Of a stretch of 64,000 nt of DNA, positions 1-6,299 are shown piece after piece. Each line of letters begins with the position of its first letter. Position 1 is the first letter of the stretch. The stretch covers positions 1-64,000 of the forward strand of contig DAIDAJ010000127.1 in NCBI GenBank assembly GCA_027310665.1. The letters are read 5' to 3'. A model generated the notes under the pieces. The model did not search any database. It was not told where the DNA came from and was given only the letters and a program-made list of their open reading frames with translations. The position numbers and the translations under genes are program-made. Origin of the DNA: Sideroxydans sp. GTDB taxonomy: Bacteria; Pseudomonadota; Gammaproteobacteria; Burkholderiales; Gallionellaceae.

Positions 1-344
1 CGCGGGCCCTCTCCATGCAGCCCAAAGTATTGCTGATGGACGAGCCGTTCGGTGCACTGGACGCATTGACGCGGGCACATCTGCAGGATGAATTGATGAA
101 GATCGTGAAAGAGACAAACAGCACCGTGGTGATGGTCACGCACGATGTGGACGAAGCAGTGTTGCTGTCCGATCGCATCGTGATGATGACCAACGGGCCG
201 GCGGCGACCATAGGCGAAATCCTGTCCGTCGATCTGCCCAAACCGCGCAATCGCCTGGCATTGGCGAACGATGCGCGCTACCACCAGTTGCGGGGTGCGG
301 TGCTGGAGTTCCTGTATCAGAAGCAAGCGAAGGAAGCGGCCTGA
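1..344 (+). CDS. Nitrate/nitrite ABC transporter ATP-binding protein, C-terminal part
   Basis: Energises uptake of nitrate or nitrite at the inner membrane. The reading frame is open from the first bases of the window, so the N-terminus, including Walker A, lies outside; the ATG at 15 is internal. The visible part has Walker B (LLMDEPFGALD) followed by the H-loop (VTHDVDEAV), as in NrtD/NasD/SsuB ATPases. The nitrate assignment rests on nirB-nirD-nasA directly downstream; by sequence alone it could serve sulfonate or taurine. The stop is followed by a structured 133-bp leader before nirB. Confidence 0.8.
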   Translation, partial: RALSMQPKVLLMDEPFGALDALTRAHLQDELMKIVKETNSTVVMVTHDVDEAVLLSDRIVMMTNGPAATIGEILSVDLPKPRNRLALANDARYHQLRGAVLEFLYQKQAKEAA

Positions 345-382
345 CTTCACCGGCCGAAAGCAGCAGCGACAGATAACGGACG

Positions 383-400
383 CGGCCCAACGGCGGGTCG
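383..400 (+). promoter_or_regulatory. ANTAR-type hexaloop hairpin 1 in nirB leader
   Basis: CGGCCC pairs with GGGTCG (one G-U) around the six-base loop AACGGC. Loop position 1 is A and position 4 is G, the two bases conserved in RNA targets of ANTAR antiterminators such as NasR and NasT. It lies 17 nt before the second hairpin. Confidence 0.6.
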
Positions 401-417
401 TGATCCCGGAAAGTATC

Positions 418-435
418 AACGACAAAGGCGTCGTT
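418..435 (+). promoter_or_regulatory. ANTAR-type hexaloop hairpin 2 (antiterminator)
   Basis: AACGAC and GTCGTT form a perfect 6-bp stem around the hexaloop AAAGGC, again with A1 and G4. The loop and 3' arm are also the 5' arm of the following terminator, so the two structures exclude each other. That is the expected design of an ANTAR antitermination switch. Confidence 0.65.
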
Positions 436-463
436 CCGGCTTGCAGCCGGACGGCGTCTTTTT
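424..463 (+). terminator. Intrinsic terminator/attenuator before nirB
   Basis: A long stem pairs AAAGGCGTCGT with ACGGCGTCTTT, with two G-U pairs. After a single-base bulge it continues as CCGGCT/AGCCGG around a TGC loop, and a run of five T follows. It ends 14 nt before the nirB start, inside the apparent operon, so it fits an attenuator better than an operon end. Confidence 0.7.
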
Positions 464-477
464 ATTGAGAGGAGTGC

Positions 478-2925
478 ATGATGAAAAGCAACAAGGTAAG
501 ACTGGTGGTGATCGGCAACGGCATGGCAGGTATCCGCACCATTGAGGAACTGCTCAAGATGTCGGCGGACGAATTCGACATCACGGTGTTCGGCGCCGAG
601 CCGCAGCCCAATTACAACCGCATCCTGCTGTCGCCGGTGCTGTCCGGCGAGATGTCGTTCCAGGACACGATCCTGAACGACTGGAGCTGGTATGAGCAGA
701 ACCATATCACCCTGCATGCGGGGAAAACGGTGACGAAGATCGACCGGATCGGCTGTGCGGTCGAAACGGCAGACGGGTTGACTGTGCCCTACGACCGCCT
801 GCTCATCGCAACGGGCTCCAACCCGATCATGCTGCCGGTTCCCGGCATCGACCTGCCCGGCGTGCTGAGCTACCGCAGCATCGTCGATGTGGAGAGCATG
901 CTGGGCACGGCCAGCGCGGGAAAGCGCGCGGTCGTGGTCGGCGGTGGCCTGCTCGGGTTGGAAGCGGCAAACGGCCTGTCGCTGCGCGGCATGGATGTGT
1001 CGGTGGTACACCTGTGCGAATGGCCGATGGAGCGCCAACTGGACAAGGCCGGCGGCGAGCTGTTGAAGGATGCACTGGAAAAACGCGGGCTGAAGTTCTA
1101 CCTGTCGCGGCAGACCGAGGCCATCCTGGGCGAGACGTCCGTCACCGGCCTGCTCTTCAAGGACGGCGAGGAGATCCCGGCCGACATGGTCGTGATGTCG
1201 GCCGGCATCCGACCCAATATCGCGCTGGCGAAGTCGGCCGGAATCCACTGCGAACGCGGCATCGTGGTCAGCGACACCATGCAGACATACGATCCGAAGA
1301 TCTATTCCGTAGGCGAATGCGTGCAGCATCGCGGGCAAACTTACGGGCTGGTCGCGCCCTTGTTCGAGCAAGCCAAGGTCGCCGCGAATCATCTCGCCCG
1401 TTATGGCGGGATGCGCTACGAAGGCTCCTCGGTATCGACCAAGCTCAAGGTGACGGGCATCGACCTGTTCTCGGCCGGCGACTTCAATCCGGGCGAAGCG
1501 GATGAAGAGATGCTGCTGCAAGATTCCGCACGCGGTGTGTACAAGAAGCTGGTGCTGCGCGACAACAAGTTGCGCGGTGCGGTGATGTACGGCGATACCG
1601 TGGACGGCCCGTGGTATTTCCAGATGATGCGCGACGGAACGGATGTGTCCGAATTGCGTGAGCATCTCCTGTTCGGGCAGGTGCATATGGGCGATTCCGG
1701 TCTCGGCGGCGTATCGAGCGTGGCGAACATGCCGGATACGGCCGAGATCTGCGGATGCAACGGCGTATGCAAGGGCGCGATCGTCAATGCCATCGTCGAC
1801 AAGAAACTGTTTACGCTGGATGAGGTGCGCGCGCACACCAAGGCATCCGCTTCGTGCGGCTCATGCACCGGACTCGTGGAAGCGCTGTTGGCAAACACGG
1901 TGGGCGGCGACTATTCCGCCAAGCCCAGCAAGAAGCCGATCTGCGGCTGCACCGAACATGCGCACCAGGATGTGCAACAGGCCATACGCGAACTCGGCGT
2001 GAAGACCATCCGCGACCTGATGCAGGCATTGAGCTGGAAGACCCCGGACGGCTGCCATGTGTGCCGCCCCGTGCTGAACTACTATCTGCTGGCCGCGTGG
2101 CCGGGCGAATACGAGGACGACAGCCATTCGCGCTTCGTCAACGAACGCGTGCATGCCAACATTCAGAAGGACGGCACGTATTCTGTGATCCCGCGTATCT
2201 GGGGCGGCGTCACTTCGCCCTCCGAGTTGCGCTCTATCGCCGAGATCGCCGAACGCTATGAAGTGCCCACCGTCCATATCACCGGCGGACAGCGCATCGG
2301 CCTGTACGGGATCACCAAGGAGAACCTGCCCAAGATGTGGGGCGAACTGGTCGAGGCCGGATTCGTTTCCGGTCACGCTTACGGCAAGGCTTTGCGCACC
2401 GTGAAGACTTGCGTGGGCTCCGACTGGTGCCGATTCGGCACGCAGGACTCGACCGGTCTGGGCATCAAGGTCGAAAAGATGACCTGGGGTTCCTGGACGC
2501 CGCACAAATTCAAGATCGCCGTTTCCGGCTGCCCGCGCAACTGTGCCGAAGCCACCATCAAGGACTTCGGCGTGGTGTGCGTGGATTCCGGCTACGAGAT
2601 ACATGTGGGCGGGAATGGCGGCGTCAAGGTGCGCGTCACCGACTTCCTGTGCAAGGTCGAGACGGAAGCGGATGTGCTGGAATACTGCGGCGCGTTCATG
2701 CAGCTCTATCGCGAACAAGCCAATTATATGGAGCGCACCGCCCCTTGGATAGAGCGCGTCGGTCTGGCCTACATCAAGCAGCATGTCGTCGAAAACAAGG
2801 CGGAGCGGGGCGAGCTTTACGCGCGCTTCCTGGAGTCGCAACGCTACTCGCAGGACGACCCGTGGAAAGAACGTGCCGAGGGGAAAGACGCGCAGGAATA
2901 TACCCCGCTTGCCACCATCGAATAA
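478..2925 (+). CDS. nirB: Nitrite reductase [NAD(P)H], large subunit
   Basis: Cytoplasmic siroheme enzyme that reduces nitrite to ammonium with NAD(P)H, the second step of nitrate assimilation. At 815 aa it has the normal family length. The N-terminal half is an FAD/NAD(P) reductase (GNGMAG near residue 12, GGGLLGLEAA near 160). Two BFD-like [2Fe-2S] segments follow (C425/C427 to C460/C463, then ICGC to CHVC near 487-529). The C-terminal domain carries the siroheme/4Fe-4S cysteines: C645 and C651 in CVGSDWC, C685 and C689 in CPRNC. ATG codons sit at 478 and 481 behind GAGAGGAG. nirD follows after 10 bp. Confidence 0.95.
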   Translation: MMKSNKVRLVVIGNGMAGIRTIEELLKMSADEFDITVFGAEPQPNYNRILLSPVLSGEMSFQDTILNDWSWYEQNHITLHAGKTVTKIDRIGCAVETADGLTVPYDRLLIATGSNPIMLPVPGIDLPGVLSYRSIVDVESMLGTASAGKRAVVVGGGLLGLEAANGLSLRGMDVSVVHLCEWPMERQLDKAGGELLKDALEKRGLKFYLSRQTEAILGETSVTGLLFKDGEEIPADMVVMSAGIRPNIALAKSAGIHCERGIVVSDTMQTYDPKIYSVGECVQHRGQTYGLVAPLFEQAKVAANHLARYGGMRYEGSSVSTKLKVTGIDLFSAGDFNPGEADEEMLLQDSARGVYKKLVLRDNKLRGAVMYGDTVDGPWYFQMMRDGTDVSELREHLLFGQVHMGDSGLGGVSSVANMPDTAEICGCNGVCKGAIVNAIVDKKLFTLDEVRAHTKASASCGSCTGLVEALLANTVGGDYSAKPSKKPICGCTEHAHQDVQQAIRELGVKTIRDLMQALSWKTPDGCHVCRPVLNYYLLAAWPGEYEDDSHSRFVNERVHANIQKDGTYSVIPRIWGGVTSPSELRSIAEIAERYEVPTVHITGGQRIGLYGITKENLPKMWGELVEAGFVSGHAYGKALRTVKTCVGSDWCRFGTQDSTGLGIKVEKMTWGSWTPHKFKIAVSGCPRNCAEATIKDFGVVCVDSGYEIHVGGNGGVKVRVTDFLCKVETEADVLEYCGAFMQLYREQANYMERTAPWIERVGLAYIKQHVVENKAERGELYARFLESQRYSQDDPWKERAEGKDAQEYTPLATIE

Positions 2926-2935
2926 GGAGAACGCA

Positions 2936-3262
2936 ATGAACTGGATACAAATCGGCAGGCTGGACGATATCCCCCGTCAGGGTTCGCGCGTGATCAATAC
3001 CGCGTCCGGCGAGATCGCCCTGTTTCGCAGCGTGGACGACCAGGTGTTCGCCCTGAGCAACCGTTGTCCGCACAAGGGCGGGCCGCTGGCGCAGGGCATC
3101 GTGCATGGCAAGCGCGTCACCTGTCCTTTGCACAGCTGGGTGATCGACCTGGAATCGGGTTCCGCCGTCGCACCCGATGTGGGCTGTGCGCAGCGTTACG
3201 AAGTGCGCGTTGCACATGACGTGCTGTTTCTCGAAGCAGAGGCAGGGGTATGCAAAGCGTGA
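2936..3262 (+). CDS. nirD: Nitrite reductase small subunit, Rieske type
   Basis: Partner of NirB in assimilatory NAD(P)H nitrite reductase, 108 aa. It keeps a complete Rieske [2Fe-2S] ligand set (C44-P-H46 and C63-P-L-H66), whereas some NirD proteins have lost these residues. The start at 2936 follows AAGGAGA and gives the family N-terminus; the longer open frame upstream only overlaps nirB. Its last 13 bases overlap the start of nasA, implying coupled translation. Confidence 0.92.
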   Translation: MNWIQIGRLDDIPRQGSRVINTASGEIALFRSVDDQVFALSNRCPHKGGPLAQGIVHGKRVTCPLHSWVIDLESGSAVAPDVGCAQRYEVRVAHDVLFLEAEAGVCKA

Positions 3263-5904
3263 ATACGCCGAACGTCACCCGCACCACCTGCCCTTATTGC
3301 GGGGTCGGCTGCGGAGTGGCAGCGAGTGTCACCGCGGCCGGCACGGTGCTTACTGGCGATAAACTCCATCCGGCCAATTTCGGGCACCTGTGCTCCAAAG
3401 GGGCCGCGCTGGCCGAGACGTTGGATCACGATGGGCGACTGCTGCATCCGCTGGCCAACGGACAGCGCGTTTCCTGGGACGAGGCGCTGGATCAGGTCGC
3501 GCACGGATTCGGGAAGGTTATCGCCGAACACGGGCCGGATGCCGTGGCGTTCTATGTTTCTGGCCAGCTCCTGACCGAGGACTATTACGTCGCCAACAAG
3601 CTGATGAAGGGATTCATTGGCAGCGCGAACATCGACACCAACTCGCGCTTGTGCATGTCGTCGGCAGTGGTGGCGCACAAGCGCGCTTTCGGCGCCGATG
3701 TGGTGCCTGTCTGCTACGAGGATATCGAGGCTGCCGATCTCGTCGTCATCACGGGCTCGAACTATGCCTGGGCACATCCCGTACTCTACCAACGGCTGGC
3801 CGCCGCGAAGAAGGCACGACCCGACATGCGGGTCGTGGTCATCGATCCGCGCCGCACGCCGACTTGCGACATTGCCGATCTGCATCTGGCGATCGCACCG
3901 GGATCGGACGCCTGTCTGTTCAACGGCCTGCTGAATTTCATCCGCCGCGAGGATGCACTCGACCTGGCTTATGTCGAGACGCATGTGGAGGGGTTTGCCG
4001 CGGCTTTCGAAGCGGCGCGTGCCGCCGGCTCGATCCCGAAAGTGGCGCAGGTTTGCGGTATTCCGGAGGCCGAGGTCAGCGAGTTCTTCCGCCTGTTTGC
4101 GCGTACCGAACGCGCCGTGACGATCTTCTCGCAGGGCATCAACCAGTCTTCCAGCGGGGTGGACAAAGGCAATGCGATCATCAACGTGCACCTCGCTACC
4201 GGGCGGATCGGACATCCCGGCATGGGGCCATTCTCGGTGACCGGACAGCCCAATGCGATGGGCGGGCGCGAGGTGGGCGGGCTGGCCAACCAACTGGCGG
4301 CTCATCTTGATTTCTCCGATGCGGCAAGTATCGAACTGGTGGCGCGGTTCTGGAATGCGCCACGCATCGCCCAAGCGCCCGGGCTGAAAGCGGTAGATCT
4401 GTTCCAGGCCATCGCATCGGGCAAGATCAAGGCGGTGTGGATCATGGGCACCAATCCGGCAGTCAGCATGCCGGATGCCGATCGCGTACGTGCGGCATTG
4501 CTGGATTGCGAACTGGTCGTGGTATCCGATTGCGTGCAGCACACCGACACGACCGCCTGCGCCGACATCCTGCTGCCGGCCGCGGGCTGGGGCGAAAAGG
4601 ACGGCACGGTGACCAACTCGGAGCGGCGGATTTCGCGGCAGCGATCCTTGCTGGCTATGGCGGGCGAAGCCAGGCCGGACTGGTGGATCATCACCCAGGT
4701 CGCACAGCGCATGGGCTTTGCCGATGCGTTCCCCTACACCCGGCCCGCGCAGATATTCCGGGAGCATGCGAGCCTGTCGAGTTTCGAGAATTCGGGCACG
4801 CGCGCTTTCGACATCAGTGCGCTGGCCGAACTGGACGATGCGGAATATGACGCCCTGCAGCCTGTGCAATGGCCGGTGAATCGCCAGGCGCCTCAGGGTA
4901 CCCCGCGTTTGTTCGATGACGGACATTTCTATACACCGAGCGGCAGGGCACGCATGGTCGCAGTTGCCCCCCGCTTGCCGGCAGTGGCGGCAGATAAGGA
5001 TTTCCCGCTGGTGTTGAACACCGGCCGGATCCGCGATCAATGGCACACCATGACGCGCACCGGAAAAGTGCCGCGCCTGAATGCGCAGGAAGCAGAGCCA
5101 TTCGTGCAAATGCATGCCTCCGATGCACACGTCTATCAACTGCAGCACGGCGGACTGGCGCGTCTGACGAGTCGCAACGGAGCCATGCTGGCACGGGTGC
5201 AAGTCAGCGAGGACCAGCGTCCGGGTTCGGTGTTCGTGCCCATGCACTGGAACGATGCCTACGCGAGATCGGCACGGGTGGATGCACTGGTTGCGCCGAT
5301 CACCGATCCGATCTCCGGGCAGCCGGAATCCAAACATACGCCGGTGCGCGTTGAACCTTATCGGCCCGCCTGGCAGGGGTTCGTGCTCAGTCGTACGCGC
5401 CTGGATTTCATGGATGCCAGTTATTGTGCTTGCACGCAGGGTGCGGGTCACTGGCGCCATGAACTGGCCGGCGATGGCATGCCGGAAGAGTGGCGCGATT
5501 GGGCGCAAGCCGCATTGGAGGATTCGGGAGAATGGCTGGAATATCGCGATGTATCGATGGGGCGTTATCGCGCTGCAAGTCTGCGGGATGGCAAGCTGGA
5601 GGCGGTATTCTTTATCGCAGCCGATCAGCGTCTGCCGGAGCGGGAATGGTTGGGCACCCTGTTCGGCAAGGAACAACTCGAATCCGGCGAGGTTGCTGGC
5701 TTGCTGGCCGCGCGACCGCCCAATGGACCGGCCGACGTCGGGCGCAACGTGTGTGCCTGTTTCAACGTGGGTGAAAAAACAATCCTTAATGCTATTCACA
5801 AAAAGGAATTGAACAGTATCGAAGCGGTTGGGGCCTGCCTGAAAGCGGGTACGGGCTGCGGCTCATGCGTACCGGAAATTCGCCGCATACTTGATCGTGC
5901 CTGA
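3250..5904 (+). CDS. nasA: Assimilatory nitrate reductase catalytic subunit
   Basis: Molybdopterin enzyme that reduces nitrate to nitrite in the cytoplasm, 884 aa. The N-terminal 4Fe-4S site is TCPYCGVGC with a further cysteine in LCSKG near residue 50. The bis-MGD domains run through the middle (for example GTNPAVSMPDADR). The last ~50 residues (CACFNVGEKTI to CGSCVPEI) form a BFD-like [2Fe-2S] domain, found in the larger NasA forms that receive electrons from NAD(P)H- or ferredoxin-linked partners. It is last in the nirB-nirD-nasA operon and probably shares the leader switch before nirB. Confidence 0.94.
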   Translation: MQSVNTPNVTRTTCPYCGVGCGVAASVTAAGTVLTGDKLHPANFGHLCSKGAALAETLDHDGRLLHPLANGQRVSWDEALDQVAHGFGKVIAEHGPDAVAFYVSGQLLTEDYYVANKLMKGFIGSANIDTNSRLCMSSAVVAHKRAFGADVVPVCYEDIEAADLVVITGSNYAWAHPVLYQRLAAAKKARPDMRVVVIDPRRTPTCDIADLHLAIAPGSDACLFNGLLNFIRREDALDLAYVETHVEGFAAAFEAARAAGSIPKVAQVCGIPEAEVSEFFRLFARTERAVTIFSQGINQSSSGVDKGNAIINVHLATGRIGHPGMGPFSVTGQPNAMGGREVGGLANQLAAHLDFSDAASIELVARFWNAPRIAQAPGLKAVDLFQAIASGKIKAVWIMGTNPAVSMPDADRVRAALLDCELVVVSDCVQHTDTTACADILLPAAGWGEKDGTVTNSERRISRQRSLLAMAGEARPDWWIITQVAQRMGFADAFPYTRPAQIFREHASLSSFENSGTRAFDISALAELDDAEYDALQPVQWPVNRQAPQGTPRLFDDGHFYTPSGRARMVAVAPRLPAVAADKDFPLVLNTGRIRDQWHTMTRTGKVPRLNAQEAEPFVQMHASDAHVYQLQHGGLARLTSRNGAMLARVQVSEDQRPGSVFVPMHWNDAYARSARVDALVAPITDPISGQPESKHTPVRVEPYRPAWQGFVLSRTRLDFMDASYCACTQGAGHWRHELAGDGMPEEWRDWAQAALEDSGEWLEYRDVSMGRYRAASLRDGKLEAVFFIAADQRLPEREWLGTLFGKEQLESGEVAGLLAARPPNGPADVGRNVCACFNVGEKTILNAIHKKELNSIEAVGACLKAGTGCGSCVPEIRRILDRA

Positions 5905-6299
5905 GCTTAACTTTCAAGTTGGGTCGAGAGTTTGCTGCGAAGGGCTGCTTTGCGGTGCTGAAAAGATATGGGTAGACTTCCGTTATCGGCCATGAACCGA
6001 CAGTCGAGGTTGAAAACTCGACGCCGGAAAGCCGACCTTCATTATGGACAACAAAGGCCGAGAAGTGTGCTGTCATTGAAATTTTCTTGACGGTCCGCAT
6101 CGGGTCGAGAAGTGAAGGTCAACCTTGAAAATAGACTGCCCGATAGCGGCCACTCGTCACAGACGGCAATGGGTTAATTTTTGCCGGTCGCGATTGTCCG
6201 CTTCCGGGCAATCCAATTTCAAATCGCATTGCGGTCAGGCCGGACAAGCGACTGTAGCAGCCTCCCAGCTTGTGCGAGATAACGTTAGACCTGATACGA
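5905..6299 (+). other. Gene-free stretch with degenerate dispersed-repeat character
   Basis: No convincing gene. The short ORFs listed here on both strands lack ribosome-binding sites and family features. The DNA contains several imperfect copies of a motif like CCGYTATCGG (TTCCGTTATCGGCC near 5980, GCCCGATAGCGGCC near 6140, GTCCGCTTCCGGGC near 6198). This resembles decayed interspersed repeats. No terminator with a T-run was found after nasA. Confidence 0.4.

Follow-up and report, generated by a model that had tools for sequence, protein, structure and literature searches.

An ANTAR-type antitermination leader before nirB in a Sideroxydans genome: a very probable second NasT gate within a nitrate assimilation operon

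Two hairpins and a terminator precede nirB in a draft genome of Sideroxydans sp., and this locus raises the question of whether the reductase genes behind a nitrate transporter are under an antitermination control of their own. The window, i.e. the whole stretch of DNA analysed, comprises the initial 64 kb of contig C45. It belongs to a 3.19-Mb MAG (92.6% complete) with closest named relatives among Sideroxydans and other Gallionellaceae (NirB identity 97-83%). Features of the locus are listed in Table 1.

The window opens at a contig edge inside nrtC. The minus strand of contig C83 shares 18 identical bases with the window start, and the reading frame continues across them to give a NrtC of 263 aa. 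The end of C83 holds nasT, nrtA, nrtB and the 5' part of nrtC, and the joined order is nasT-nrtA-nrtB-nrtC-nirB-nirD-nasA. Relatives carry the genes in identical order, both within single contigs (L003, L006-L011) and in the closed genome G057. Based on the 18-base overlap and on synteny in relatives, C83 and C45 are taken to adjoin.

Table 1. Features of the nirB leader and neighbouring genes (window coordinates unless a contig is named)
Feature	Position	Strand	Details	Basis
Tat-signal nitrate-binding protein (nrtA)	L002 (contig C83) 1248-2555	minus		
nrtC 3' part (nitrate ABC transporter ATPase)	3..344	+	partial; 5' part at end of contig C83	NCBIfam ntrCD
P1 hairpin	381..402	+	stem 381-388/395-402, loop 389-394 AACGGC	sequence; covariation in 52 leaders
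P1-P2 linker	403..417	+	sequence and length not conserved	alignment
P2 hairpin	418..435	+	stem 418-423/430-435, loop 424-429 AAAGGC	sequence
Intrinsic terminator	424..463	+	hairpin 424-461 into T-run TTTTT 459-463	fold
Putative Shine-Dalgarno-like GAGAGGAG of nirB	467..474	+		sequence
nirB, assimilatory nitrite reductase large subunit	478..2925	+	941.7 bits	NCBIfam TIGR02374
nirD, nitrite reductase small subunit	2936..3262	+	93.9 bits over cut-off	NCBIfam TIGR02378
nasA-type assimilatory nitrate reductase	3250..5904	+	C-terminal BFD-like [2Fe-2S]	Pfam Molybdopterin, Molydop_binding, Fer2_BFD

Inspection by eye and by script revealed both hairpins noticed in the first-pass annotation of this DNA, each with a hexaloop having A at position 1 and G at position 4. 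P1 reads CGCGGCCC-AACGGC-GGGTCGTG and P2 reads AACGAC-AAAGGC-GTCGTT, the outer pair of the latter varying between C-G, G-C and A-U in aligned leaders. Folding agrees with the annotation in a further point, that the second hairpin shares bases with a T-tailed terminator ending 14 nt before the nirB ATG. The terminator takes up all six bases of the P2 loop together with the P2 3' arm, and the two structures are therefore mutually exclusive (folding energies -26.2 kcal/mol for the terminator vs -4.8 kcal/mol for P2). A generic terminator scan of the window did not call this terminator, probably because of a bulge in its hairpin. Across its 64 kb, the window contains a single instance of two A1/G4 hexaloops combined with an overlapping terminator, compared with a mean of 0.1 in 20 dinucleotide shuffles. 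The sequence pattern CAANGGC...CAAWGGC was tried and rejected, as its 24 matches in the genome (11 for the reversed pattern) are nearly all due to chance.

The strength of the terminator hairpin would also suit a plain intrinsic terminator which lowers nirB expression relative to nrtC and carries the hexaloops by chance. Conservation argues against this. We aligned 52 leaders from relatives in the family and from some Gammaproteobacteria, chosen by the P2 core and the P1 loop and not by the P1 stem. A1 and G4 are present in both loops of all 52. Two-sided stem changes number 82 vs 35.5 ± 4.0 in shuffled alignments, and the covariation score is 0.439 vs 0.171 ± 0.015 when shuffled and at most 0.095 for slid partners. 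RNAalifold, run with no structure supplied, predicts the same two hairpins. In addition, a hold-out model (R2), built from leaders that precede nrtA and comparable genes and from which nirB leaders were withheld, detects the window leader (38.3 bits, E 7e-10) and all other nirB leaders of relatives.

Overlap of the terminator with P2 was observed by scripted folding in 49 of 54 leaders. Inspection of the remaining five disclosed longer terminator loops in L021, L028, L031 and L040, and a T-run inside the loop in L042. Three Gallionella-type genomes (L021 4018-4200, L028 2840-3020, L031 1323-1500) keep both arms of the nirB terminator but have a GC-rich inverted repeat inserted into its loop, very roughly 75-100 nt long.

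A covariance model run over the 3.19-Mb genome scored only two sites, the nirB leader and one at the operon head described below (54.5 and 51.6 bits; the next best reached 14.9). Conserved and covarying loops and stems, the restriction of such sites to these two, and the association of the motif with an ANTAR gene make a plain terminator with accidental hexaloops scarcely credible. The nirB leader is a real, conserved ANTAR-type leader.

The annotation had read the leader as a target of ANTAR antitermination, and this reading is borne out by the A1/G4 loops, covariation and terminator overlap kept in related leaders and by the presence of a suitable gene. The genome has a single ANTAR gene, nasT, which encodes receiver and ANTAR domains and adjoins the nitrate genes. 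Among 100 family genomes, 34 encode a strong ANTAR protein (at least 60 bits). The motif was found in 32 of these, the exceptions being G061 and G070, and in none of the other 66. Model R1 used for these counts was trained partly on nasT-adjacent leaders of the counted genomes, so that the positive side is not independent, while the zero on the negative side is. When only the 53 nirB-bearing family genomes are taken, the motif is present in 31/32 with and 0/21 without a strong ANTAR gene, with a Fisher p of 7e-14 that overstates independence because the genomes are related. Plasmid records carry NasT-like proteins, all below 60% identity, and order-level genomes were preferred to them as outgroup. 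In the congeneric genome G050, NasT is replaced by a NasR-type NIT+ANTAR protein (L085 412-1677), and leaders of the same kind are present (L194 2064-2111 and 6642-6693), which fits a swap of regulator, NasR for NasT. The nirB leader is almost certainly read by NasT, whose binding we infer from sequence.

A different kind of reader would be a ligand, nitrate or another compound, recognized by the leader as a riboswitch instead of a protein target. Rfam lists a related RNA, narK (RF03032), as an uncharacterised cis-regulatory RNA, and this could speak for such a role. At the gathering score, the Rfam search returned no match in the nirB leader; in a permissive search RF03032 matches window positions 352-434 with 25.5 bits vs a gathering score of 43.2, the main reason for the low score being that the promoter part is missing. 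The RF03032 consensus begins with GGCaCAgcucUUGCU, a sigma54 -24/-12 element (sigma54-like GGCAC-N5-UUGCU). This is followed by a P1 hairpin whose loop reads AACGGC, and the final element, CGACAAAGACGUCG, is P2 with loop AAAGAC, annotated as unpaired in Rfam. R1 matches 25 of 26 RF03032 loci tested in the order, nearly all at the same place, and two of these are also in the family of R1. The loci concerned are L161-L190. Outside the family, a strong ANTAR gene is present in 25/25 RF03032-positive genomes vs 7/19 of those without RF03032. RF03032 thus appears, from consensus and co-occurrence, to be the NasT/NasR leader together with its sigma54 promoter. In the literature searched we found no statement equating the two, which is weak evidence of novelty. 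The nirB leader itself consists of just two short hairpins and a variable linker with no large conserved core, it matches the published ANTAR target (PMC3369931), and its presence is tied to ANTAR genes in both family and order; a ligand-binding riboswitch is accordingly very improbable. Another Rfam candidate, the Brucella sRNA BSnc120, was rejected, with 18.5 bits vs a gathering score of 114 and an alignment mostly to the terminator.

The placement of the leader turned out to differ from the initial description, in which it lay between transporter and reductases rather than at the operon head. The nasT-nrtA gap on the adjoining contig holds another ANTAR leader, composed of P1 (CGAATC-AACGGT-GGTTCG), P2 (GGAC-AAGGGC-GTCC) and a terminator, with 32 nt from P1 loop to P2 loop. 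A perfect sigma54 match, TGGCACGACTGTTGC, lies 16 nt upstream of this head leader. The sole ANTAR protein would read both leaders, and there would therefore be no separate nitrate signal for the reductases, contrary to the proposal that nitrate controls their synthesis apart from uptake. A graded, serial effect of two leaders is the sole remaining possibility for differential control. The nirB leader very probably acts, in series with the head leader, as a further gate under NasT.

The inner leader is not found in three relatives with nasT-nrtABC-nirB (L019, L023 and L027). Inspected by eye, the head leader of L023 (2160-2310) shows the loop variants AACGGA and AAAGGT, with A1/G4 kept; a small gene of winged-helix look lies between it and nrtA, and where the inner leader would be expected (5660-6000) there is a small MoaD-like gene.

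The two leaders differ in their promoters. A sigma54 site lies 13-25 nt upstream of P1 in nearly all nrtA leaders of the family and in all ten nirB leaders whose position is not immediately after nrtC (L015, L017, L018, L020, L021, L026, L028, L029, L031, L040). Within 60 nt of P1, none of the ten leaders directly behind nrtC (window, L003, L004, L006-L012) has such a site. In the window, a search for TGGCAC-N5-TTGC-like sites gave none within 60 nt of P1 and none near P1 with one mismatch allowed; the inner leader of the closed genome G057 is likewise without a sigma54 site. A sigma70 promoter scan upstream of the nirB leader also returned none. The interval from the nrtC stop to P1 is just 38 nt in the window, so any promoter would have to lie within nrtC, and such an internal promoter driving nirB is possible. 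The corresponding gap in L006-L012 is 286-406 nt and could hold another promoter. In L042, nrtC lies upstream and the sigma54 promoter persists 155 nt past it, so that this locus looks like an intermediate in promoter loss. Along its nitrate region, the genome G069 carries three consecutive sigma54 and ANTAR leaders, every one preceded by a promoter of its own (at about 1077, 2694 and 6005 on the reverse strand of L191).

The simplest reading is that nirB was once a sigma54-ANTAR unit of its own which was joined behind nrtABC, whereupon the promoter was lost and the gate was kept. From this it could be argued that the inner leader is a relic of the joining, a functional gate with no benefit beyond that of the head leader. 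The sigma54 promoters of nirB leaders elsewhere, the intermediate look of L042 and the missing inner leader in some relatives are in accord with a relic. On the other hand, P1, P2 and the terminator are kept in all promoterless internal copies: between divergent internal leaders, mean identity is 93% for P1 and 100% for P2, and only ~34% for the 40 nt before P1 and ~35% for the P1-P2 linker. Hairpins kept despite drifted flanks point to continued selection, and a mid-operon terminator that is never relieved would shut off nirB. We therefore regard a relic as unlikely. The window segment 381-463 is very probably a NasT-responsive antitermination leader, the second of two serial gates in nasT-[head leader]-nrtABC-[inner leader]-nirB-nirD-nasA.

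Free NasT is known to bind P1-P2 and to block the terminator (PMC3369931, PMC3795266, PMC5424462). Applied to this operon, RNA polymerase starting from the sigma54 promoter before nrtA would encounter a NasT-dependent terminator at the operon head and another ahead of nirB. When free NasT is lacking, the terminator hairpin would capture the P2 loop and 3' arm, and transcription would stop. Nitrate would free NasT, and the ANTAR dimer would then hold P1 and P2 through their A1/G4 loops, so that no terminator could form and transcription would proceed into nirB. With NasT plentiful, both gates would be open. Since the gates are in series, the leak in nitrate-free conditions would be the product of both, leaving the reductases lower than the transporter; most likely, the second gate multiplies the leak of the first and reductases are held tighter than the transporter.

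How nitrate is sensed upstream of NasT is a related question. A cytoplasmic NasS (NrtA-like, with no signal peptide) was not found in the genome, a 92.6% complete MAG. The single strong NMT1_2 protein is the nrtA product, which has a twin-arginine signal and is followed by nrtB, and in the closed relative G057 the one strong NMT1_2 protein likewise carries a twin-arginine signal and precedes nrtB. The nrtA product shares 67-76% identity with the NasS proteins of sister genomes (L017, L020, L034, L035), where NasS adjoins nasT and has no signal, and only 31-38% with NrtA of other transporters; the two genes, nasS and nrtA, are easily confused (PMC3795266). The nitrate sensor would be either another protein or the nrtA binding protein in a double role. 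According to a tentative reading that we hold to be doubtful, NasT operates without NasS: the Tat-exported binding protein, folded in the cytoplasm and nitrate-free, would hold NasT, and the two gates would set the reductases tighter. The half concerning NasT and the binding protein is drawn from gene content and the Tat signal. If true, a binding protein holding NasT would couple nitrate sensing to uptake.

Comparison with known systems shows what is shared and what differs. For Pseudomonas aeruginosa and P. putida, PMC12830290 describes NalA, a NasT-controlled nirBD leader with a sigma54 promoter (citing Romeo 2012 and Nie 2024). Compared by description, NalA resembles the window leader in preceding nirB and in having a terminator relieved by NasT (predicted here), and its promoter corresponds to nirB leaders of several of our relatives; unlike NalA, the window leader lies behind nrtC, lacks a sigma54 promoter and comes second in a pair of leaders. 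The Klebsiella nasF leader is an A1/G4 hexaloop target of NasR, according to Chai and Stewart as cited in PMC3369931. It shares the hexaloops, the terminator and the operon order transporter-reductases with our case, but it is described at the operon head and is read by the one-component NasR, whereas the window system has NasT and an additional internal leader. The EutV system of Enterococcus faecalis also combines dual hexaloop targets with more than one leader per locus (eutP, eutG, eutS, eutA; PMC3369931), although it concerns ethanolamine genes and phosphorylated EutV. Of the two NasT hairpins predicted in the narK and bjgb leaders of a Bradyrhizobium diazoefficiens nitrate assimilation operon, one is internal (PMC6759348); these hairpins are only predicted, and expression in a nasT mutant was opposite under denitrifying conditions (PMC6759348). 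NasT-controlled nirB leaders and multi-leader loci are thus already known, and it is the placement of the window leader that is unusual.

The locus is a clear example of serial NasT/ANTAR gates, two within a single nitrate assimilation operon of iron-oxidising Gallionellaceae. The analysis also provides a likely identity for the uncharacterised Rfam narK RNA, and it points to NasT-bearing genomes without detectable NasS. In the family, relatives form a natural series, with the promoter of the inner gate retained in some and lost in others, and this makes the purpose of the second gate testable.
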